The position numbers and the translations under genes were made by a program. Positions 3,546 to 54,015 of a DNA stretch of 64,000 bases are shown piece after piece. Position 1 is the stretch's first letter. Each line of letters starts with the position of its first letter. The stretch comes from Ophiura sarsii (Eukaryota > Echinodermata > Ophiuroidea > Amphilepidida > Ophiuridae), in contig CM069447.1 in the NCBI GenBank assembly GCA_035610835.1, positions 76,583,982 through 76,647,981 on the forward strand. The letters are read 5' to 3'. Below the pieces are notes generated by a model that saw nothing but the letters and a program-made list of their open reading frames with translations, was not told the DNA's origin and made no database searches.

Positions 3546-3585
<40 letters not shown>
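3546..3585 (+). repeat. Poly-G run, 40 bases
   Basis: An uninterrupted run of 40 G. Such a run can form G-quadruplexes and is prone to slippage and sequencing error, so its true length is uncertain. Open frames crossing it as polyglycine are artefacts. Confidence 0.95.
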
Positions 3586-8315: not shown

Positions 8316-8684
8316 GCAACCTGAAATATAATATCCAGAATTCATGAGATACTAAGAGATATTACTATAAAACAACAATCAGTTGTTGAAGGATATCAAA
8401 GTGTCATGGACGGGAGCCACTGTAACAACTATCAATATTGTTCAGTTATAAAAGTATAGAGTATAAGTCATGCTGGGGTTGTGTAAGGGACTACAAGGAA
8501 TGGGTGTGTGTGGGGGGGGGGGGGGGGGGGGGGGGGGAGGGTGCAACCTGAAAACTAAATTCAGGAACACGTGGTCTCTTAATAAAGAGATAATAATATC
8601 TATCACAACCATTAGTTGTTGGAAGATATAAACGTGTCGTAATAGAAAGTTCATTCTACTCAACATTGTTCAGCTGTAGTAGAG
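8316..8684 (+). repeat. Diverged tandem duplication, two copies about 227 bp apart
   Basis: Copy A (8316-8458) and copy B (8543-8684) both begin GCAACCTGAAA, share an ATCAGTTGTTG/ATTAGTTGTTG core and AAGATATAAACGTGTC-like block, and end in ATTGTTCAG. Between them lies GGGTGTGTGTGG followed by a 26-base G run. A second G-rich patch at 8737-8766 follows copy B. Copies are similar but clearly diverged. Confidence 0.65.
8512..8537 (+). repeat. Poly-G run, 26 bases
   Basis: Uninterrupted G run preceded by a short GT repeat. Polyproline frames on the minus strand across it are artefacts. Confidence 0.95.
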
Positions 8685-8841: not shown

Positions 8842-8941
8842 NNNNNNNNNNNNNNNNNNNNNNNNNNNNNNNNNNNNNNNNNNNNNNNNNNNNNNNNNNN
8901 NNNNNNNNNNNNNNNNNNNNNNNNNNNNNNNNNNNNNNNNN
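8842..8941. other. Assembly gap (100 N)
   Basis: Exactly 100 N, the usual placeholder for a gap of unknown size. It abuts the first base of the 2.4-kb satellite, so the array very probably continues into the gap and the real number of units is unknown. Confidence 0.95.
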
Positions 8942-35069: not shown

Positions 35070-36009
35070 CTTTGAGCCTTGATTGGCGAGGATTGGCAAG
35101 GCTCATACCTATGAAGCTGTGATTGGTAAATTTGGCAAAGGAAAAAAGAACACTTATCATGCTAATGTTGACACTTCTGTTGAATCTCTGCACGTAAAGT
35201 CACTTGTGTGTTACCAATACTTTCTTTTTTTAACCAAAGAAGATTTTTTTCTTCACTTTAATGCACACTCGGTCAAGGCATTATCATTTACTTGATTACA
35301 TTGTGACTCGTAGGACAGATCTTGCAAATGTCTTATTAACAAAAGCAATGAGGGGAGCAGAATGCTCAACTGACCACTACGTGGTATGTTCCCAAATCAG
35401 ACTCCGTTTCTTACTGCCAAGGCAAAAAAAACTCCTATCAATGCACCCAAGAAATTAGATGTCAACAATTTGAAAGATGAAGAACACAAAATGAAACTAG
35501 AAACAGCAATGACCAAATCTCTTCAAGGCAACAAAATCCACTCAGATCCAAATAATGTTGAAGAACAGTGGAAACACCTTAGAGAATCCATCTTCTCAAC
35601 CGCTAGCGAAGTACTTGGTCATCCTAAAAGAACACATCCTGACACGTTCCAAGAACAAGACGACGGATTTCCAGCATTGTTGGATCATTTAAACAGCATG
35701 TAATAACATAAAATCGAAAGTTCAAAAGGAGATCGGAGCTTTGAAGGGCAAACGGTGCAATAAAATACAGCTGAGCTTGAAGCAATGTCGAGCAGAAATG
35801 ACACTCATGGGCTCTTATCAGGTCTAAAAACTATCTGAGGAGTGAGGACCATGCAATAAGTAAATTAGTGGCCCCAGTGAAAACAGTAGATGGGAGCAGG
35901 CTGTGCACTAATTTGAATGATATCACTGAGCGTTGGAGGGAACAATACTGTATTCTACTAAACCAACAAGGTGCAGCTGACCACAAAACTTGTCAAGGGC
36001 TCACTAACT
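35070..36009 (+). pseudogene. RTE-like retrotransposon, 5' part (endonuclease end and linker), interrupted
   Basis: In several frames the plus strand reads in family order: ARIGKAHTYEAVIGKFGKG (endonuclease, after the catalytic Asn strand), then SRHYHLLDYIVTRR and AECSTDHYVV (the DH of STDH is part of the catalytic site), then the linker between endonuclease and RT (EEQWKHLRESIFSTASEVLG), and ERWREQYCILLNQ, the segment just before the RT. The similarity stops abruptly at ACTAACT (36003-36009). The next expected segment is found at 47772, in the same orientation and frame. This is therefore one element split by the insertion at 36010-47778. Confidence 0.8.
36003..36009 (+). repeat. Candidate 7-bp target duplication, left copy (ACTAACT)
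   Basis: The same 7 bases recur at 47772-47778. Both copies sit where the retrotransposon reading breaks off and resumes. Confidence 0.6.
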
Positions 36010-36355
36010 GGATACATGTCATGATCTAGGGCATAGGTTTTTTTCTGAAAAGGAAAATACGAGGACTGTATTTAATTACATTGTCTCTGACAAGGTTGGC
36101 ATGTAGTTGATGCATTTGATATGGTTGAAAAGTACAATTTATTTGTTTTTGGATGCGGAAAGAGAATGCAACATACAGAAGTTGTAAATCTAAACCTAAT
36201 ATATTGATTGTACTTTAAAACAAAGTGGACGTATTTCGCGTTTAACTCTATTTGAAACAAACTCTCAGCACTCTCGACATAAGTATATAATACGTGTAAC
36301 AGGTGTACAAAAGGAACCAATTACTCACTAATTAAAACTGTGAAAACAGTATACT

Positions 36356-39300
36356 TTAATAATTTTCTACAAAATTTCAACACATTTTTTGTACGTAGTC
36401 GTTTTTTAACATTCACCATTATGCATTACGTGCGTGTAGTGTGTGTCTACCTCTCTCTCAATGTTTTTACAAATCCACACATGTTCTTGTACTCTAATAA
36501 TGTTCTCCAAAATTTCAACACATTTTTTTGTACTTAGTCGTTTTTCAACTTTCACCATATGCATTACGTGCGTGTAGTGTGTGTCTACCTCTCTCTCAAT
36601 GTTTTTACAAATCCACACATGTTCTTGTACTCTAATAATTTTCTCCAAAATTTCAACACATTTTTTTGTACTTAGTCGTTTTTCAACTTTCACCATATGC
36701 ATTACGTGCGTGTATCTATGCATTACGTGCGTCTAGTGTGTGTGCGTCTAGTGTGTGTAATTTTCTCCAAAATTTCAACACTTTTTTTTGTACTTAGTCG
36801 TTTTTCAACTTTCACCATATGCATTACGTGCGTGGGGTGTATGGCTCCCTATCTCTCTCAATGTTTTAAAAAATCCACACATGTTCTTGTACTCTAATAT
36901 TTTTCTCCAAAATTTCAACCCATTTTTTGTACTTAGTCGTTTTTCAACATTCACCATATGCATTACGTGCGTGTATAGTGTATGTCTACCTCTCTCTCAA
37001 TGTTTATAAAAACCACACATGTTCTTGTACTCTAATAATTTTCTCCAAAATTTCAACACATTTGTTTGTACTTCGTCGTTTTTCAACATTCACCCTATGT
37101 ATTACGTGCGTGTAGTGTCGTTGTTCAACATTCACCATATGCATTACGTGCGTGTATATATGCATTACGTGCGTCTAGTGTGTGTCTACCTCTCTCCCAA
37201 TGTTTTAACAAATCCACACATGTTCATGTACTCTAATAATTTTCTCCAAAATGTCAACACATTTTTTTTGTACTTAGTCGTTTTTCAACTTTCACCATAT
37301 GCATTACGTGCGTGTATCTATGCATTACGTGCGTCTAGTGTGTGTCTACCTCTCTCCCAATGTTTTAACAAATCCACACATGTTCTTGTACTCTAATAAT
37401 TTTCTCCAAAATTTCAACACATTTTTTTGTACTTAGTCGTTTTTCAACATTCACCACGTATTACGTGCGTGTAGTGTACATGTACATGTACATGTATGTC
37501 TACCTCTTTCTCAATGTTTTTAAAAAATCCACACATGTTCTTGTACTCTAATAATTTTCTCCAAAATGTCAACACATTTTTTTGTACTTAGTCGTTTTTC
37601 AACTTTCACCATATGCATTACGTGCGTGGGGTGTATGTCTCCCTATCTCTTTAAATGTTTTAAAAAATCCACACATGTTCTTGTACTCTAATATTTTTCT
37701 CCAAAATGTCAACACATTTTTTTGTACTTAGTCGTTTTTCAACATTCACCCTATGTATTACGTGCGTGTAGTGTATGTCTACCTCTCTCTCAATGTTTTA
37801 AAAAATCCACACATGTTCTTGTACTCTAATATTTTTCTCCAAAATTTCAACACATTTTTTTGTACTTAGTCGTTTTTCAACATTCACCCTATGTATCTCT
37901 CAATGGTTTTTTTAAAAATCCACGCATGTTCTTGTACTCTCATATTTTTCTCCAAAATTTCAACACATTTATTTGTACTTAGTCGTTTTTCAACATTCAC
38001 CATATACGTGCGTGTAGCCTATTTAGTTATTACTATACCTAACTCTATATGTTTTTAATCCACACTTGTTCTTGTATTCTAAAATTTTCCTCCAAAATTT
38101 CAACACATTTTTTTGTACTTAGTCGTTTTTCATCATTCACCCTATGTATTACGTGCGTGTATAGTGTATGACTACCTATCTCTCAATGTTATTTAAAAAT
38201 CCACACATTTTCTTGTGCTCTAATAAGTTCTCCAAAATTTCAACACATTTTTTTGTACTTAGTCGTTTTTCAACATTCACCCTATGTATTACGTGCGTGT
38301 ATAGTGTATGTCTGCCTATCTCTCAATGTTTTTTAAATCCACGCATGTTCTTGTACTCTCATATTTTTCTCCAAAATTTCAACACATTTTTTTGTACTTA
38401 GTCGTTTTTCAACATTCACCCTATGTATTACGTGCGTGTATAGTGTATGTCTACCTATCTCTCAATGGGTTTTTTAAAAATCCACGCATGTTCTTGTACT
38501 CTCATATTTTTCTTCAAAATTTCAACACATTTTTTTGTACTTAGTCGTTTTTCAACATTCACCCTATGTATTACGTGCGTGTATAGTATATGTCTACCTA
38601 TCTCTCAATGGTTCCAAATTTCAACACATTATTTTGTACTTAGTCGTTTTTCATCATTCACCCTATGTATTACGTGCGTGTATAGTGTATGTCTACCTAT
38701 CTCTCAATTTTTTTTAAAAATCCACGCATGTTCTTGTACTCTCATATTTTTCTTCAAAATGTCAACACATTTTTTTGTACTTAGTCGTTTTTCAACATTC
38801 ACCCTATGTATTACGTGCGTGTATAGTGTAAGTCTACCTATCTCTCAATGTTTTTTAAAAATCCACGCATGTTCTTGTACTCTCATATTTTTCTCCAAAA
38901 TGTCAACACATTTTTTTGTACTTAGTCGTTTTTCAACATTCACCCTATGTTTTACGTGCGTGTATAGTGTATGTCTACCTATCTCTCAATGTTTTTTTTT
39001 AAAAATCCACGCATGTTCTTGTACTCGACTCTCATACTTTTCTTCAAAATTTCAACACATTTTTTTGTACTTAGTCGTTTTTCAACATTCACCCTATGTA
39101 TTACGTGCGTGTATAGTGTATGTCTACCTATCTCTCAATGTTTTTTTAAAATCCACGCATGTTCTTGTACTCTCATATTTTTCTCCAAAATGTCAACACA
39201 TTTTTTTGTACTTAGTCGTTTTTCATCATTCACCCTATGTATTACGTGCGTGTATAGTGTATGTCTACCTATCTATCAATGTTATTTAAAAATCCACACA

Positions 39301-42300
39301 TTTTCTTGTACTCTAATAATTTTCTCCAAAATGTCAACACATTTTTTTGTACTTAGTCGTTTTTCATAATTCACCCTATGTATTACGTGCGTGTATAGTG
39401 TATGTCTACCTATCTCTCAATGGGTTTTATAAAAATCCACGCATGTTCTTGTACTCTCATATTTTTCTCCAAAATTTCAACACATTTTTTTGTACTTAGT
39501 CGTTTTTCAACATTCACCCTATGTATTACGTGCGTGTATAGTGTATGTCTACCTATCTCTCAATGTTTTTTAAAAATCCACGCATGTTCTTGTACTCTCA
39601 TATTTTTCGTCAAAATTTCAACACATTTTTTTGTACTTAGTCGTTTTTCAACATTCACCCTATGTATTACGTGCGTGTATAGTGTATGTCTGCCTATCTC
39701 TCAATGTTTTTTAAAATCCACGCATGTTCTTGTACTCTCATATTTTTCTCTAAAATGTCAACACATTTTGTTGTACTTAGTCGTTTTTCATCATTCACCC
39801 GTGTATTACGTGCGTGTATAGTGTATGTCTACCTATCTCTCAATGGTTTTTTTAAAAATCCACGCATGTTCTTGTACTCGACTCTCATACTTTTCTTCAA
39901 AATTTCAACACATTTTTTTGTACTTAGTCGTTTTTCAATATTCACCCTATGTATTACGTGCGTGTATAGTATATGTCTACCTATCTCTCAATGGTTCCAA
40001 ATTTCAACACATTATTTTGTACTTAGTCGTTTTTCAACATTCACCCTATGTATTACGTGCGTGTATAGTGTATGTCTGCCTATCTCTCAATGTTTTTTAA
40101 AATCCACGCATGTTCTTGTACTCTCATATTTTTCTCCAAAATTTCAACACATTTTTTTGTACTTAGTCGTTTTTCAACATTCACCCTATGTATTACGTGC
40201 GTGTATAGTGTATGTCTACCTATCTCTCAATGGGTTTTTTAAAAATCCACGCATGTTCTTGTACTCTCATATTTTTCTCCAAAATTTTCAACACATTTTT
40301 TTGTACTTAGTCGTTTTTCAACATTCACCATATACGTGCGTGTAGCCTATTTAGTTATTACTATACCTAACTCTATATGTTTTTAATCCACACTTGTTCT
40401 TGTATTCTAAAATTTTCCTCCAAAATTTCAACACATTTTTTTGAACTTAGTCGTTTTTCAACATTCACCCTATGTATTACGTGCGTGTATAGTGTATGTC
40501 TGCCTATCTCTCAATGTTTTTTAAAAATCCACGCATGTTCTTGTACTCTCATATTTTTCTCCAAAATTCAACACATTTTTTTATACTTAGTCGTTTTTAA
40601 ACATTCACCCTATGTATTACGTGCGTGTATAGTGTATGTCTACCTATCTCTCAATGTTTTTTAAAAATCCACGCATGTTCTTGTACTCTCATATTTTTCT
40701 TCAAAATTTCAACACATTTTTTTGTACTTAGTCGTTTTTCAACATTCACCCTATGTATTATGTGCGTGTATAGTGTATGTCTGCCTATCTCTCAATGTTT
40801 TTTAAAATCCACGCATGTTCTTGTACTCTCATATTTTTCTCCAAAATTTCAACACATTTTTTTGTACTTAGTCGTTTTTCAACATTCACCCTATGTATTA
40901 CGTGCGTGTATAGTGTATGTCTACCTATCTCTCAATGGGTTTTTTAAAAATCAACGCATGTTCTTGTACTCTCATATTTTTCTCCAAAATTTGAACACAT
41001 TTATTTGTACTTAGTCGTTTTTCAACATTCACCATATACGTGCGTGTAGCCTATTTAGTTATTACTATACCTAACTCTATATGTTTTTAATCCACACTTG
41101 TTCTTGTATTCTTAAATTTTCCTCCAAAATTTCAACACATTTTTTTGTACTTAGTCGTTTTTCATCATTCACCCTATGTATTACGTGCGTGTATAGTGTG
41201 TGACTACCTATCTCTCAATGTTATTTAAAAATCCACACATTTTCTTGTGCTCTAATAAGTTCTCCAAAATTTCAACACATTTTTTTGTACTTAGTCGTTT
41301 TTCAACATTCACCCTATGTATTACGTGCGTGTATAGTGTATGTCTGCCTATCTCTCAATGTTTATTAAATCCACGCATGTTCTTGTACTCTCATATTTTT
41401 CTTCAAAATTTCAACACATTTTTTTGTACTTAGTCGTTTTTCAACATTCACCCTATGTATTATGTGCGTGTATAGTGTATGTCTGCCTATCTCTCAATGT
41501 TTTTTAAAATCCACGCATGTTCTTGTACTCTCATATTTTTCTCCAAAATTTCAACACATTTTTTTGTACTTAGTCGTTTTTCAACATTCACCCTATGTAT
41601 TACGTGCGTGTATAGTGTATGTCTACCTATCTCTCAATGGGTTTTTTAAAAATCCACGCATGTTCTTGTACTCTCATATTTTTCTCCAAAATTTTCAACA
41701 CATTTTTTTGTACTTAGTCGTTTTTCAACATTCACCATATACGTGCGTGTAGCCTATTTAGTTATTACTATACCTAACTCTATATGTTTTTAATCCACAC
41801 TTGTTCTTGTATTCTAAAATTTTCCTCCAAAATTTCAACACATTTTTTTGAACTTAGTCGTTTTTCAACATTCACCCTATGTATTACGTGCGTGTATAGT
41901 GTATGTCTGCCTATCTCTCAATGTTTTTTAAAAATCCACGCATGTTCTTGTACTCTCATATTTTTCTCCAAAATTCAACACATTTTTTTATACTTAGTCG
42001 TTTTTCAATATTCACCCTATGTATTACGTGCGTGTATAGTATATGTCTACCTATCTCTCAATGGTTCCAAATTTCAACACATTATTTTGTACTTAGTCGT
42101 TTTTCAACATTCACCCTATGTATTACGTGCGTGTATAGTGTATGTCTGCCTATCTCTCAATGTTTTTTAAAATCCACGCATGTTCTTGTACTCTCATATT
42201 TTTCTCCAAAATTTCAACACATTTTTTTGTACTTAGTCGTTTTTCAACATTCACCCTATGTATTACGTGCGTGTATAGTGTATGTCTACCTATCTCTCAA

Positions 42301-44296
42301 TGGGTTTTTTAAAAATCCACGCATGTTCTTGTACTCTCATATTTTTCTCCAAAATTTTCAACACATTTTTTTGTACTTAGTCGTTTTTCAACATTCACCA
42401 TATACGTGCGTGTAGCCTATTTAGTTATTACTATACCTAACTCTATATGTTTTTAATCCACACTTGTTCTTGTATTCTAAAATTTTCCTCCAAAATTTCA
42501 ACACATTTTTTTGAACTTAGTCGTTTTTCAACATTCACCCTATGTATTACGTGCGTGTATAGTGTATGTCTGCCTATCTCTCAATGTTTTTTAAAAATCC
42601 ACGCATGTTCTTGTACTCTCATATTTTTCTCCAAAATTCAACACATTTTTTTATACTTAGTCGTTTTTAAACATTCACCCTATGTATTACGTGCGTGTAT
42701 AGTGTATGTCTACCTATCTCTCAATGTTTTTTAAAAATCCACGCATGTTCTTGTACTCTCATATTTTTCTTCAAAATTTCAACACATTTTTTTGTACTTA
42801 GTCGTTTTTCAACATTCACCCTATGTATTATGTGCGTGTATAGTGTATGTCTGCCTATCTCTCAATGTTTTTTAAAATCCACGCATGTTCTTGTACTCTC
42901 ATATTTTTCTCCAAAATTTCAACACATTTTTTTGTACTTAGTCGTTTTTCAACATTCACCCTATGTATTACGTGCGTGTATAGTGTATGTCTACCTATCT
43001 CTCAATGGGTTTTTTAAAAATCAACGCATGTTCTTGTACTCTCATATTTTTCTCCAAAATTTGAACACATTTATTTGTACTTAGTCGTTTTTCAACATTC
43101 ACCATATACGTGCGTGTAGCCTATTTAGTTATTACTATACCTAACTCTATATGTTTTTAATCCACACTTGTTCTTGTATTCTTAAATTTTCCTCCAAAAT
43201 TTCAACACATTTTTTTGTACTTAGTCGTTTTTCATCATTCACCCTATGTATTACGTGCGTGTATAGTGTGTGACTACCTATCTCTCAATGTTATTTAAAA
43301 ATCCACACATTTTCTTGTGCTCTAATAAGTTCTCCAAAATTTCAACACATTTTTTTGTACTTAGTCGTTTTTCAACATTCACCCTATGTATTACGTGCGT
43401 GTATAGTGTATGTCTGCCTATCTCTCAATGTTTATTAAATCCACGCATGTTCTTGTACTCTCATATTTTTCTTCAAAATTTCAACACATTTTTTTGTACT
43501 TAGTCGTTTTTCAACATTCACCCTATGTATTATGTGCGTGTATAGTGTATGTCTGCCTATCTCTCAATGTTTTTTAAAATCCACGCATGTTCTTGTACTC
43601 TCATATTTTTCTCCAAAATTTCAACACATTTTTTTGTACTTAGTCGTTTTTCAACATTCACCCTATGTATTACGTGCGTGTATAGTGTATGTCTACCTAT
43701 CTCTCAATGGGTTTTTTAAAAATCAACGCATGTTCTTGTACTCTCATATTTTTCTCCAAAATTTGAACACATTTATTTGTACTTAGTCGTTTTTCAACAT
43801 TCACCCTATGTATTACGTGCGTGTATAGTATATGTCTACCTATCTCTCAATGGTTCCAAATTTCAACACATTATTTTGTACTTAGTCGTTTTTCATCATT
43901 CACCCTATGTATTACGTGCGTGTATAGTGTATGTCTACCTATCTCTCAATGTTTTTTAAAAATTGTACTCTCATATTTTTCTTCAAAATGTCAACACATT
44001 TTTTTGTACTTAGTCGTTTTTCAACATTCACCCTATGTATTACGTGCGTGTATAGTGTAAGTCTACCTATCTCTCAATGTTTTTTAAAAATACACGCATG
44101 TTCTTGTACTCTCATATTTTTCTCCAAAATTTCAACACATTTTTTTGTACTTAGTCGTTTTTCAACATTCACCCTATGTTTTACGTGCGTGTATAGTGTA
44201 TGTCTACCTATCTCTCAATGGTTTTTTTTAAAAATCCACGCATGTTCTTGTACTCGACTCTCATACTTTTCTTCAAAATTTCAACACATTTTTTTG
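36356..44296 (+). repeat. Plus-oriented tandem array, about 57 units of about 140 bp
   Basis: The unit contains, in order, CATTCACCCTATGTATTACG, TGCGTGTATAGTGTATGTCT, ACCTATCTCTCAATG, a variable T/A run, ATCCACGCATGTTCTTGTAC, CAAAATTTCAACACA and TTTTTTTGTACTTAGTCG. Typical spacing is 139-143 bp. Short units of about 99 bp, marked by CAATGGTTCCAAATTTC, lack the ATCCACGC-to-CTCC part. A variant with AGCCTATTTAGTTATTACTA recurs at 38017, 40339, 41046, 41751, 42413 and 43117. Units on the left (36.3-38 kb) are the most diverged, those at 39.9-43.8 kb the most alike. Confidence 0.95.
39931..43723 (+). repeat. Higher-order repeat: 1.72-kb block duplicated at a 2,070-bp offset
   Basis: The block 39931-41653 recurs at 42001-43723. 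I compared many lines and found no difference inside the block. Edges show as changes at TTTTTCAATA (left) and AATCCACG/AATCAACG (right). Multi-unit amplification of this sort points to recent unequal exchange within the left array. Confidence 0.85.
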
Positions 44297-44437
44297 ATCC
44301 CGCGCCTGGTGTCCCCCCCCCCCCCCCCCCCAACTTTTGAAAACGGGATGACGCCCTTGGGTATAACAACAGAATTACTCCAACATTTTAACATCAATTT
44401 CGGGGTTGGCATGTAGCAGGCGTAATAAGACAAAATA
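44297..44437. other. Central spacer between the opposed arrays, with a 19-base C run
   Basis: Unique sequence containing C run 44313-44331. It is the only non-repeat DNA in the middle of the foldback and has no gene. It shares the 12-mer GTTGGCATGTAG (44403-44414) with the left end (about 36093-36104), which may be chance or a trace of the ancestral element. Confidence 0.7.
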
Positions 44438-47224
44438 AGTGAATGATGAAAAACGACTATTAGTACAAAAAAATGTGTTGACATTTTGGAGAAAAATATG
44501 AGAGTACAAGAACATGCGTGGATTTTAAAAAAACATTGAGAGATAGGTAGACATACACTATACACGCACGTAATACATAGGGTGAATGTTGAAAAACGAC
44601 TAAGTACAAAAAAATGTGTTGAAATTTTGGAGAAAAATATGAGAGTACAAGAACATGCGTGGATTTTTAAAAAAACATTGAGAGATAGGCAGACATACAC
44701 TATACACGCACGTAATACATAGGGTGAATTATGAAAAACGACAAGTACAAAAAAATGTGTTGAAATTTTGGAGAAAAATATGACTGAGTACAAGAACATG
44801 CGTGGATTTTTAAAAAACATTGAGAGATAGGCAGACATACACTATACACGCACGTTATACATAGGGTGAATTATGAAAAACGACTAAGTACAAAAAAATG
44901 TGTTGAAATTTGGGAGAAAATTATAAGAGTACAACAAATGTGTGGATTTTTAAAAAACATTGACAGATAGGCAGACATACACTATACACGCACGTAATAC
45001 ATAGGGTGAATGTTGAAAAACGACTAAGTACAAAATAATGTGTTGAAATTTGGAACCATTGAGAGATAGGTAGACATATACTATACACGCACGTAATACA
45101 TAGGGTGAATGTTGAAAAACGACTAAGTACAAAAAAATGTGTTGAAATTTTGGAGAAAAATATGACTGAGTACAAGAACATGCGTGGATTTTTAAAAAAC
45201 ATTGAGAGATAGGCAGACATACACTATACACGCACGTAATACATAGGGTGAATTATGAAAAACGACTAAGTACAAAAAAATGTGTTGAAATTTGGGAGAA
45301 AATTATAAGAGTACAACAAATGTGTGGATTTTTAAAAAACATTGACAGATAGGCAGACATACACTATACACGCACGTAATACATAGGGTGAATGTTGAAA
45401 AACGACTAAGTACAAAATAATGTGTTGAAATTTGGAACCATTGAGAGATAGGTAGACATATACTATACACGCACGTAATACATAGGGTGAATGTTGAAAA
45501 ACGACTAAGTACAAAAAAATGTGTTGAAATTTTGGAGAAAAATATGAGAGTACAAGAACATGCGTGGATTTTAAAAAACATTGAGAGATAGGTAGACATA
45601 CACTATACACGCACGTGATACATAGGGTGGTGAATGTTGAAAAACGACTAAGTACAAAATAATGTGTTGAAATTTGGAACCATTGAGAGATAGGTAGACA
45701 TATACTATACACGCACGTAATACATAGGGTGAATGTTGAAAAACGACTAAGTACAAAAAAATGTGTTGACATTTTGAAGAAAAATATGAGAGTACAAGAA
45801 CATGCGTGGATTTTTAAAAAACCCATTGAGAGATAGGTAGACATACACTATACACGCACGTAATACATAGGGTGAATGATGAAAAACGACTAAGTACAAA
45901 AAAATGTGTTGAAATTTTGGAGAAAAATATGAGAGTACAAGAACATGCGTGGATTTTAAAAAAACATTGAGAGATAGGCAGACATACACTATACACGCAC
46001 GTAATACATAGGGTGAATGTTGAAAAACGACTAAGTACAAAAAAATGTGTTGACATGTTGACGAAAAATATGAGAGTACAAGAACATGCGTGGATTTTTA
46101 AAAAACATTGAGAGATAGGTAGACATACACTATACAGGCACGTAATACATGGGTGAATTATGAAAAACGACTAAGTACAAAAAATGTGTTGACATTTTGG
46201 AGAAAATTATTAGAGTACAAGAAAATGTGTGGATTTTTAAATAACATTGATAGATAGGTAGACATGCACTATACACGCACGTAATACATAGGGTGAATGA
46301 TGAAAAACGACTAAGTACAAAAAAATGTGTTGACATTTTGGAGGAACATTTTAGAATACAAGAACAAGTGTGGATTAAAAACATATATAGTTAGGTATAA
46401 CTAATAGGCTACACGCACGTATATGGTGAATGTTGAAAAACGACTAAGTACAAAAAAATGTGTTGAATTTTTTTTGGAGAAAAATATGAGAGTACAATAA
46501 CATGCGTGGATTTTTAAAAAACCCATTGAGAGATAGGTAGACATACACTATACACGCACGTAATACATAGGGTGAATGTTGAAAAACGACTAAGTACAAA
46601 AAAATGTGTTGAAATTTTGGAGAAAAATAGGAGAGTACAAGAACATGCGTGGATTTTAAAAAACATTGAGAGATAGGCAGACATACACTATACACGCACG
46701 TAATACATAGGGTGAATGTTGAAAAACGACTAAGTACAAAAAAATGTGTTGAAATTTTGAAGAAAAATATGAGAGTACAAGAACATGCGTGGATTTTTAA
46801 AAAAACATTGAGAGATAGGTAGTCATACACTATACACGCACGTAATACATAGGGTGAATGTTGAAAAACGACGAAGTACAAAAAAATGTGTTGAAATTTT
46901 GAAGAAAAATATGAGAGTACAAGAACATGCGTGGATTTTTAAAAAAACATTGAGAGATAGGTAGTCATACACTATACACGCACGTAATACATAGGGTGAA
47001 TGTTGAAAAACGACTAAGTACAAAAAAATGTGTTGAAATTTGGGAGAAAATTATTAGAGTACAACAAATGTGTGGATTTTTAAAAAACATTGAGAGATAG
47101 GCAGACATACACTATACACGCACGTAATACATAGGGTGAATGTTGAAAAACGAACTAAGTACAAAAAAATGTGTTGAAATTTTGAAGAAAAATATGAGAG
47201 TACAAGAACATGCGTGGATTTTTA
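44438..47224 (-). repeat. Minus-oriented tandem array, about 20 units of about 140 bp
   Basis: Same unit as the left array on the opposite strand, including the short CCAAATTTC variant (45046-45055 region) and one inverted AGCCTATTTAGTTA variant (about 46380-46410). A 382-bp multi-unit block at about 44868 is repeated at about 45250. This array is less than half as long as the plus array. Confidence 0.93.
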
Positions 47225-47771
47225 TCTAATCTAAATCTAAATACATTTCACGTACATTATGCACAAGATAAATTTTGATGAAAAACTTAAAAAGTACAAT
47301 GATGAATTTTGAAAAACTTAAAAAGTATCACAAAATGTGTTTTTGATATTATTGAGAAAGGTATATAATGTATAGGAACACACATCGTATCTGAGATCAT
47401 ATGGTCTCAGCGTATATGTCGAATGATGAAAAACGATGACAAACAAAAATATACGTATGTTAAATGTTGAAGACGAATACGTATTTTGTGTGGCTCGCAG
47501 TATAATTGGTTGGGTAGGAGTAGATTTGGGTAGTAGTGTGATGGGCTATGTTTAGTATTTCTTAGACGGGCAGCTTCATATTGGGGTTCTGTACAATATA
47601 ATGTTTAATATTTTTGGGTACTGACGGTCAGTTTACGTATATCCCGTATTAAACACGTGGCGCCAAGTTTTTTACACCATACGCGATCATGTACTCGTTT
47701 TTCTATTCCATGCCCTACGCGATCATGTACGCGCGCTTTTCTATTCCATGCCCTAAATGTTGACTTATATG
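47225..47771. other. Right end of the foldback element with decayed units
   Basis: At 47265-47460 weak copies of the array unit remain (GATGAAAAAC, AAAAAGTAC, CAAAATGTGT). From 47460 the sequence is unique. A 30-bp direct repeat containing ACGCGATCATGTAC and TTTTCTATTCCATGCCCTA occurs twice at about 47680-47757. The last copy overlaps the proposed terminal inverted repeat. Confidence 0.5.
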
Positions 47772-47778
47772 ACTAACT
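47772..47778 (+). repeat. Candidate 7-bp target duplication, right copy (ACTAACT)
   Basis: Mate of 36003-36009. If the DNA between the two copies is ignored, the retrotransposon frame runs on without a shift. Confidence 0.6.
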
Positions 47779-48290
47779 AACAAAAAGATGAGCTATGTAA
47801 ACCTATCACAATGGATGAACTTGATAATAAGGCTGTGAATGACACCAGAAGTGGTAAAACGCCAAGGAAGATGGCATACCAACAGATGTACTAAAGACTG
47901 AATTGTTAGACCTATTTCAATGCTTGCTGGCAAGGCGCATGTCTCCCTCAGGACTTTAAAGACGCAATTATTGTTACCATTTACAAAAACAAGTTACAAA
48001 TGTGTCTGTGGAAATCAGAGAGGAATTTCCCTCCTGTCCATAACTGGCAAAATCATGGCAACAATAATCCACAACCGGCTTCAGATTATCGCAGAAGAGG
48101 TACTTCCTAAGAGGCAGTGTGGCTTAGCCTTTAGGGCTGATAGAGCAACCGATGACATGATTTTCACTTTGTTGCAACTTCAGAAGAAGGCGGTAGAACA
48201 GCAGCAACCATTGTACATTAGTATTTGTTGATTTCTCCAAAGCGTTTGATACGGTGTTCAAAGTATACGAATGTCCAGATAGACAATGAT
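47772..48290 (+). pseudogene. RTE-like retrotransposon, 3' continuation (RT domain start)
   Basis: Directly after ACTAACT the frame continues that of the 35070-36009 fragment, with one stop codon, into QKDELCKPITMDELD. Other frames follow with DGIPTDVLKTELLDL, PQDFKDAIIVTIYKN, NQRGISLLSITGKIMA, RQCGLAFRADRATDDMIF and VDFSKAFDTV, the successive fingers and palm motifs of the RT (the AFDTV block holds a catalytic Asp). Several frameshifts and the missing QGD/FADD core show it is dead. Recognisable sequence fades by about 48290. Confidence 0.85.
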
Positions 48291-48724
48291 CAAGTTGTTC
48301 CATGAGGACATGTTCGGAAAGATGTCCACTGGAGGAAATTCTAGTGAAGCTATAACAATCAATTACGGCTTACAGAAAACTTGTTAGACCAGCCCTTTTC
48401 TCTGTCGAGGCATTGATCAAGAGCATTGTTAACATTGTTGACATACCCAGCCAAATATGAACAGATTTCAGGCAGTGTGCAAATGATACTTACTTTAAGC
48501 TAATACTATATCGTCATACTTCATACCTATAAATCCAAAACTGTATAGTTTGAAAGACAAAGGTTCATACGTTGTATTGATCATCAGTATCATATACTCA
48601 CTCATGCATCCCATACCATTCAGTTTCATTATTTATTGACCGACCCTCGTACTAAAATATAGCCGCCAGAATCAAGTCCACAGCCAGTTTATATGAATAT
48701 AATCATGATCGCGGAAGAGACATA
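48291..48724. other. No recognised gene
   Basis: Possibly further decayed RT sequence (CCAGATAGACAATGATCAAG region), but no motif can be placed. Confidence 0.35.
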
Positions 48725-52179: not shown

Positions 52180-54015
52180 GCTTGGCGGTTGTCAACAAAT
52201 CACTCTATGACGGGCCAGCGGGAAATCGGCACAACATCACGAACTGTTGGTCCTGAGAAGCGTCGTCTAATCTGCCTTCAAACTTCTTGTTGTATCTACA
52301 TACAACATGAGTGCCCTATACCAACTAGGGAAGGTACACCAACTAGTGCAGATACAGATATATACATCATTGGCATACAGGAACATCGCTTGATTAATTC
52401 CAACAACAGGTATGGTCTGATAACAAAAAAATGGGTCCTACAAATCAGCGTCAGGGAGGTGTTGGTATTTTAGTGTCAAAATACAGACACAGATGCCTAA
52501 ATTCTATAAACAACAGAATCATCACTGCCACATTCCATGGTAATCCCAAACTTACCATTACGTCCATTTATGCTCCAACTAAAAGTGCTACTCCTGATGA
52601 CAAAAATGAGTTCTACAACAACTTGGAAAACCATCTTGAGCAGGTGACTCGCAACATCCACTTGAGTTGGGGAGACTTTAATGCCCGAATTGGATTAAAC
52701 AGCAACTCATCACACCCTGAAGTTATTGGACGTAACTGTTTCTATGATATGACAAACAAAAATGGAGAGAGGCTTGTAAGTATGTGCGAAGAATATAAAC
52801 GCCGCCCAGCGCAGTCAAGATTCCCTCAACCCAGACGCCGTCTGTGGACATGGATGCACCCAGCAGGGTCTAAACATCAGCTCGACCACATCCTAATTAA
52901 CAGCAAGTGGACAAACCTATTTCTTAAGGAACTGTAGAGCATAAAACTCTGTGGAACGAGACTCAGAACACCGGATTGTCAGCATCAAGCTCGTGTGTAG
53001 CCTAAGATCTACCAAAGGGAAACCCTGCAAAAGACCGAGGTTTGACTTGGAAAAGCTGCAAAATGCTGACACAAAAGAGGTATTCCAGATTGAGCTGTCA
53101 AATAGATTCGAAATCCTCAAGTGCAACGACACATCCACACCAATAACAGAGAGATACGAACAGTTAGAGAAAGCAGTTTCAGAAGCAGCCGAAAAAGTTG
53201 TTGGAAAACTCAAACCTCATGGCATGCCAACCTGGGTTACGGACAAGACTATTCACCTAAAGTCTGAGAGGGACGCGGCCAAAAGACGTTACCTTGTCTC
53301 AAAGTCACGGCATTACAGAGACAGATGGAGGAAGCTCAACACCTGTTTGAATGAGTCTTACAAGGCAGATGAATCGTCCATGTCAATAAACAGATGGACG
53401 ATCGTCATGAAGTTGACCAGAAAGGTGACTATTCCACCACATGGAAAATCATCCATGATCTCTCTGGGAAAGATAGAAAGTCCAGCGTCAAGGTCAAGAA
53501 AGGAGATGGTACCACCCCCAAAGAATGACAAAGACCTACTTGCAGAATGGAGAAAGTTTTTCAGCTCACTGCTAAACAATGACAGCGGTCACATTCTATA
53601 TGATCTACCATCACCTGCTGCTCAAGACCTGCCCATCCACATTGATCCTCCCACACTTGAAGAAACACAGGAAGCCATTCATCAAATGAAGCCCAAGAGG
53701 CTGCAGGTCTTGGCTGTGAAATCACATCAGAAGCACTTCAAAATGGCGGTGACATATTGGTACAAATTGTCCATGGGTTCTGCATGGAAGTTTACACCAC
53801 CCTGAAACCACCCAACCAGTGGACCACCAGTGTTATTGTTCCTCTACCTAAGAAGGGGCCTCTCTCTTATGACTAACTATAGAGGAATATCTCTTCTGTC
53901 AATTGCAGCTAAAGTATACAACACGATCCTGCTCAACATAATTAGAGATCATGTCGACCCCATCGTCAGCAAATCGACATCCTGAGGAGAATTGTGGCCC
54001 TGATTGGTTACAATA
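52180..54015 (+). pseudogene. Degenerate non-LTR retrotransposon ORF2 (endonuclease, linker, RT start)
   Basis: The order is complete but the frame is broken. About 52345-52400: DIYIIGIQEHRL (endonuclease strand with catalytic Glu). 52440-52937: GGVGILVSK, RIITATFHGNPKLTITSIYAP, LSWGDFNARIG (catalytic D.N pair; the usual form is GGDFNA), GSKHQLDHILIN. 52951 on: SEHRIVSIKL (H of the SDH motif kept, Asp changed to Glu). 53000-53805: the linker with WVTDKTIHL and RRYLVSKS. 53810-53960: VIVPLPKKG, NYRGISLLSIAAKVYNTILL (RT fingers). A final out-of-frame QIDILRRI ends the match near 54015. Three or more frameshifts and at least one stop; QGD and FADD boxes are absent. The clade differs from the RTE-like copies at 33.4 and 35-48 kb. 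Confidence 0.85.

Follow-up and report, generated by a model that had tools for sequence, protein, structure and literature searches.

An 11.8-kb foldback element is inserted as one unit into a retrotransposon copy

The window analysed here is a stretch of 64,000 nucleotides of the Ophiura sarsii genome (GenBank assembly GCA_035610835.1, contig CM069447.1, positions 76,583,982 to 76,647,981 of the forward strand), and its own numbering is used below. At positions 36011-47771 it contains an 11.8-kb insertion which, in our judgement, is probably a single, non-autonomous foldback DNA transposon. It belongs to a dispersed family, most likely moved by a transposase of the P/THAP9 type. The element was inserted as a single unit, with an 8-bp duplication of the target. 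A preliminary description, made from the sequence alone, had proposed one mobile foldback unit, and this is supported by an empty site and by ends shared with other copies. The inserted unit consists of a left end, 58 plus-oriented units, each about 140 bp long, then a centre of 0.14 kb, 22 minus-oriented units and a right end. All 80 units were found by profile, with a single orientation switch between the arms, so that the two opposed arrays noted earlier are indeed there. Long inverted termini made of tandem subrepeats, a target-site duplication and an empty site are all present, as in the foldback class. The parts of the element and of its host are these:

35086-36010, plus strand: left half (reverse transcriptase region) of the interrupted non-LTR (LTR, long terminal repeat) retrotransposon copy, with the left target duplication as its last 8 bp; 893/915 identical to the uninterrupted copy L040 up to 36009, and with protein homologues
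36003-36010, no strand: left target-site duplication ACTAACTG; the empty site reads ACTAACTA
36011-36036, plus strand: left terminal inverted repeat GATACATGTCATGATCTAGGGCATAG
36011-36371, plus strand: left end domain, unique sequence from the terminus to the first array unit
36372-44271, plus strand: left arm of 58 profile-defined units, each about 140 bp; its part 39921-41654 is copied exactly 2070 bp downstream
44272-44438, no strand: centre, a partial unit until about 44295, followed by unique sequence that includes a poly-C run
44439-47299, minus strand: right arm of 22 profile-defined units, each about 140 bp and oriented the other way, the outermost unit degenerate
47300-47771, minus strand: right end domain; within it, a direct repeat of 38 bp (47680-47755) holds two TAGGGCATGG motifs
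47746-47771, minus strand: right terminal inverted repeat CATATAAGTCAACATTTAGGGCATGG
47772-47779, no strand: right target-site duplication ACTAACTA
47780-48371, plus strand: right half of the interrupted retrotransposon copy; 582/599 identical to L040 over 47772-48371

The flanks of the element are the halves of a degenerate reverse-transcriptase copy with several frameshifts, whose frame, as had been claimed, continues across the joined flanks with one stop codon. With the joined flanks as a protein query, 822 of 948 candidate proteins matched at E 1e-5 or better, and comparison of the proteins makes the interrupted retrotransposon a relative of non-LTR-type reverse transcriptases; its clade name, RTE, is that of the preliminary description. 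The best of the uninterrupted copies scored in the genome searched (1.57 Gb, containing the window) is L040 (C7:75960402-75960702), which is 98% identical over 302 nucleotides across the junction, reads CTCACTAACTAACAAAAAG, aligns gap-free to the joined flanks and carries one ACTAACTA at the empty site; relative to it, the left duplication copy of the window has an A-to-G difference at 36010. L040 and the window diverge outside 35086 and 48371, and L040 is therefore a separate retrotransposon copy serving as an empty site rather than a segmental duplicate. The second-best copy (L041) is 93% identical and 4 nucleotides longer near the junction. It had been suggested that uninterrupted copies be examined for extra sequence at this point; scoring covered 40 of 112 candidates, and each of the 40 matches the joined flanks right across the junction. 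An alignment with 12 homologues shows the joined frame to lack one residue relative to every one of them (12/12) at the junction and to have one extra about 10 residues further on. As no gap is needed to align the uninterrupted L040 with the joined flanks, this short spot is older than the insertion.

The element starts at 36011 and its target-site duplication is 8 bp long

The heptamer ACTAACT stands at 36003 and at 47772, where it had been reported, and at 3 further places in the window. The left terminus, previously set at 36010, and the duplication, previously taken to be 7 bp long and Galileo-like, both had to be revised by one base. In 19 of 20 left ends fetched, the conserved sequence starts with GATACATGTCA and the preceding base is variable, the exception being L018, whose terminus is altered. 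Among 17 left flanks (one per shared flank, L018 included) ten have G as this base and five have T, with C and A found once each. Because the base at 36010 thus varies among copies, the element starts at 36011, and because complete copies on C6 and C4 have exact 8-bp duplications with A as the eighth base, the duplicated stretch is 8 bp. The window duplication, ACTAACTG/ACTAACTA, matches at 7/8 positions; those of C19 (CGCCCGAG), C6 (TACTTTTA) and C4 (GATAGCGA) match at 8/8, and that of C10 (AGAATATG/AGAAAATG) at 7/8. Of 11 independent left-right pairs, 5, the window included, carry an 8-bp duplication whose two copies agree at 7 or 8 positions; pairs were selected by eye from match lists, and the printed octamers of part of them were compared by eye. 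At the eighth octamer base G is in excess (10/17 left flanks), and the window empty site has A there.

The imperfect inverted match between the 26-bp extremities, also noted earlier, amounts to 19/26 (P = 7.5e-5 for random window pairs to reach 19/26). The motif TAGGGCATRG occurs 3 times in the window, every time at the element ends (expected 0.07), and a conserved TAGGGCAT block is present in each short terminal inverted repeat. The element has no matches at E 1e-5 to the remainder of the window, and no open frames of at least 120 amino acids were found inside it besides array translations.

The element belongs to a dispersed family with a diverged subfamily

That other copies with these ends should exist was a check set beforehand, and the ends do recur genome-wide. 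The left 24-base terminus was found at 132 places within 3 mismatches, with none for the reversed-pattern control, and the right 24-base terminus at 79 places, with 0 forward and 1 reverse for the control. Among the best candidates there were 40 genome matches to the left end domain, of which the top ten extend over 336 or more of its 341 bases and are 88-100% identical, and 24 matches to the right end. Among the 100 left-terminus places listed (32 of the 132 are outside the list), 40 are units of one 63-bp tandem satellite (L056, C1:121047653-121050136). Some loci are segmental duplicates of single insertions, with identical flanks: those at C19:33.80 and C19:34.05 Mb, two more on C19, and two on C6.

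On C19, the copy at 33.80 Mb has both ends and a length of 7610 bp, and its centre is a different, 1.8-kb repeat region. Short tandem repeats make up 1.8-2.6 kb of centre in three C19 copies (L009, L011, L012), as compared with the 0.14-kb centre of the window copy. A second complete foldback, of 5248 bp, lies on C10 and represents a subfamily, B, whose units are related to those of the window but diverged (alignment score 67 versus a shuffled maximum of 32, on the same strand only). A copy of 1102 bp on C6 is a shortened relative of the C10 copy, matching both its ends at 95-97%. At C5:65006406 and C5:65007286 a third terminus variant (GATACCTGTCATGATTTAGGACAG), which is listed at other genome places too, stands in inverted orientation at the two ends of a 0.9-kb unit whose flanking octamers mismatch. 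When the open frame of the array served as a protein query, none of 756 word-sharing candidates reached E 0.001; an exact-pattern search with the 140-bp core found nothing in the viral and prokaryote contigs searched, nor did the left end occur in the phage records searched.

The opposed-array build is intrinsic and is common to other copies, the divergent subfamily among them. With units of the window type (A-type), the array nearest the left end was in plus orientation in 12/12 fetched loci that had more than a lone, distant unit; the other 8 of the 20 left-end loci fetched comprise 6 where A-type units were missing and 2 with just a single distant one, and the result for L020 rests on one short match. 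A B-type profile gave plus in 7/7 further left-end loci, one of which (L028) has one minus unit besides. Nearest the right end, the array was minus in 10/10 loci, window included. Some of these loci are the same insertion, which leaves about nine independent A-type sites per side. Opposed arrays are also seen in the complete copies on C19 and C10.

The arms of the window copy are homogenised with each other

The comparison of arms kept units having at least 110 aligned model positions and arm sets made up of 3 units or more. The mean distance between units of the left and right arms of the window copy is 7.7%, and that within the arms 7.2 and 7.9%, while distances to 17 arm sets of other loci range from 8.5 to 16.7%. 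The nearest neighbour lies within the window element for 48/50 left units and 17/18 right units. Homogenisation of the arms with each other is seen in this copy only: among three insertions tested, the arms are alike in one (the window), and not in C19 and C10. A general homogenisation of arms, which the window copy had suggested, was dropped after the C19 and C10 distances. We infer exchange between the opposed arms in the window copy, and a recent doubling of one arm would equally account for their likeness. The left arm also contains exact 1734-bp copies, 39921-41654 and 41991-43724, spaced 2070 bp, which point to either a very recent duplication or an effect of the assembly.

A transposase of the P/THAP9 type most likely moves the family

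The published systems mentioned here and below are described as in excerpts of the papers concerned. Target duplications of the P superfamily are 8 bp, and 7-8 in Galileo. Pdre2, the zebrafish P homologue, has the terminus CATACCTGTCAAC and makes 8-bp duplications (PMC10983969). The right ends of the window and of L025 match this terminus at 10/13 positions, and that of the C10 copy (subfamily B) at 11/13; when the Pdre2 sequence was slid along the two strands of each end domain as a control, its best match was at the terminus in 3/3 right ends. Mobilisation by a P/THAP9-type transposase is suggested by the right terminus together with the length of the duplication. The short motif TTAGGGCA, found in the right end and in the usual left end, would fit the THAP consensus TXXGGGX(A/T) (PMC3464256); the left end of the window copy itself has CTAGGGCA, which departs from the consensus. 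Additional transposase sites lie in the tandem repeats of the long Galileo ends (PMC3688188), and by analogy the arrays described here may possibly act as such sites as well. The P-type domain PF21787 has 73 matches in the genome, several at one locus and 21 in open frames of at least 600 amino acids. The earlier proposal of a transposase coded elsewhere is thus plausible, although no partner was identified: a search of PF21787 matches against the listed termini found no coding partner with matching ends. In the C19 centres, viewed without a Pfam scan, only minisatellite and short open frames were seen, and no transposase. As for the P superfamily itself, also proposed earlier, the right terminus and the 8-bp duplication speak for it without proving it.

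A number of results weigh against this reading. In the C19 copy L012 the left and right arms differ by 8.3%, as compared with 7.0% between its left arm and the C5 element and 6.8% between its left arm and that of C4, with L009 and L011 behaving alike; the C10 arms differ by 11.8%, whereas the left one is 4.5% from another locus. The left termini match Pdre2 at 9/13 and were tied or beaten by other end-domain places in 2/2 cases, and they begin with G; their likeness to Pdre2 was dropped as evidence after this sliding control, and since they are no better than background, the right end alone counts. Moreover, the comparison was with one terminus alone, that of Pdre2, from the P superfamily. The PF21787 place nearest to any of 130 listed terminus places is 21 kb off, outside the element that owns the terminus, and at two P loci that have open frames no termini could be located within the 5 kb fetched of each. 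Finally, 6 of the 11 independent left-right pairs have no clear duplication, with matches of 5/8 at C6:67.95 Mb, 0/8 at C5:22.06 Mb, 2/8 at C119, 0/8 at C643, 2/8 in an 85-bp C1 copy and 2/8 in the third terminus variant. On their flanks, C5:22.05 and C5:22.07 Mb (0/8) were rejected as one insertion, as were the C119 (2/8) and C643 (0/8) pairs. Chimerism, rearrangement, recombination or wrong pairing of copies may account for these six, and exchange between copies has been described for Galileo (PMC3573991). Our confidence in a foldback transposon moved by a P/THAP9-type transposase, and in the wider picture given further below, is lowered by the left-terminus control and by the C19 and C10 arm distances.

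The strongest competing idea is that the very same foldback element is mobilised by hAT, MULE or another superfamily which also makes 8-bp duplications, and we consider it unlikely, but well worth weighing. On one hand, 8-bp duplications alone do not identify P, and the left termini resemble Pdre2 no more than background does; for Tetris, which is alike in build, the authors chose Mutator from duplications of 8-10 bp and from earlier suggestions on foldback elements (PMC4079207). On the other hand, the right termini match Pdre2 at 10-11/13, and no other place in their end domains does better in any of the three. Elements of the hAT superfamily prefer T at the second base of the octamer, and here that base is T in just 3/17 flanks.

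It is scarcely credible that a satellite array grew in place, or was inserted by recombination, with the 7-base match due to chance: expansion within the arms does happen, as the exact duplication at the 2070-bp offset attests, but the empty site, the recurring termini and the duplications at other copies contradict such an origin. An assembly artefact, in which a hairpin or a misjoin would have produced the opposed arrays, is very improbable as well. The poly-C run in the centre might hint at one, yet left ends and right ends that are independent of this locus repeat the opposed orientation, and C19 and C10 each have a complete foldback copy flanked by a target duplication. A Helitron-like element or Helentron with tandem repeats, as in oyster (PMC7492417), has next to no likelihood, even though Helentrons carrying satellite-like arrays are known in animals. 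Target-site duplications and terminal inverted repeats are both present here, which contradicts a Helitron. Helitrons are not known to make target duplications.

The element entered an already degenerate non-LTR retrotransposon copy as a unit, duplicating 8 bp. With a foldback transposon moved by a P/THAP9-type transposase as the favoured reading, a transposase supplied by coding elements elsewhere in the genome would mobilise it. The arms of the window copy could have been homogenised through pairing of the inverted arrays and copying during replication, or in repair after excision. A wider picture may be drawn, which we regard as tentative and rather doubtful: a P-superfamily foldback lineage outside flies would share one transposase with several families of short elements having related ends, its array and terminus would be shed as new satellites, and in some copies the opposed arms would be homogenised by hairpin pairing or post-excision gap repair.

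Comparison with known systems and significance

Our search of the open-access literature on foldback elements, focused on molluscs as to animal group (subscription papers and repeat libraries were outside it), found no element of this description among the top-ranked papers, which dealt with Galileo, Tetris and the oyster Helentrons. Galileo (Drosophila, P superfamily) is alike in having long inverted ends and, in some subfamilies, internal tandem repeats which expand and contract (PMC3573991, PMC4168063, PMC3688188). It differs in that its duplications are mostly 7 bp, with the consensus GTATTAC, while those of the window family are 8 bp, and base counts of 17 left flanks gave no GTANTAC-type consensus. 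Its end repeats are present in few copies, as compared with the 58 and 22 units of 140 bp of the window copy, and its P membership rests on its own transposase, whereas none was found in the window family. Tetris, a foldback element of Drosophila virilis, shares tandem repeats of about 220 bp as ends, a variable middle, no coding copy found, duplications of 8-10 bp and the seeding of satellite DNA (PMC4079207); it was assigned to Mutator by its authors, and we set it beside the window family by description only. Pdre2, alike in its right-end match and 8-bp duplications (PMC10983969), differs as a transposase-coding element with 13-bp terminal repeats, for which the excerpts describe no long arrays. 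The P-MITEs (P miniature inverted-repeat transposable elements) of Anopheles are likewise non-coding, with P ends and 8-bp duplications (PMC1562414), but they are short, and opposed arrays are not described in the parts of the source consulted.

In the literature found, Galileo of Drosophila is the foldback element assigned to the P superfamily, and the present family is a candidate from elsewhere; if its P membership is true, it would be a non-fly counterpart of Galileo. With its clean empty site, its two subfamilies and a number of complete copies, the family is a testbed for the growth of inverted satellite arrays in transposons, and it also allows tests of mutual conversion of opposed arms and of satellite seeding by transposons.

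Other features of the window

Between 9053 and 26233 the same 28-bp repeat pair returns about every 2406 bp over much of the stretch, which points to a larger tandem block. Near this block, long poly-G runs and a 100-base N gap (3546-3585, 8512-8541, 8842-8941) hint at difficult assembly. A second retrotransposon fragment with open frames lies at 52398-53805, its first frame being a weak endonuclease-reverse-transcriptase match below the cut-off. On the minus strand, positions 2713-2759 match the histone 3' untranslated region (UTR) stem-loop at the Rfam gathering score.

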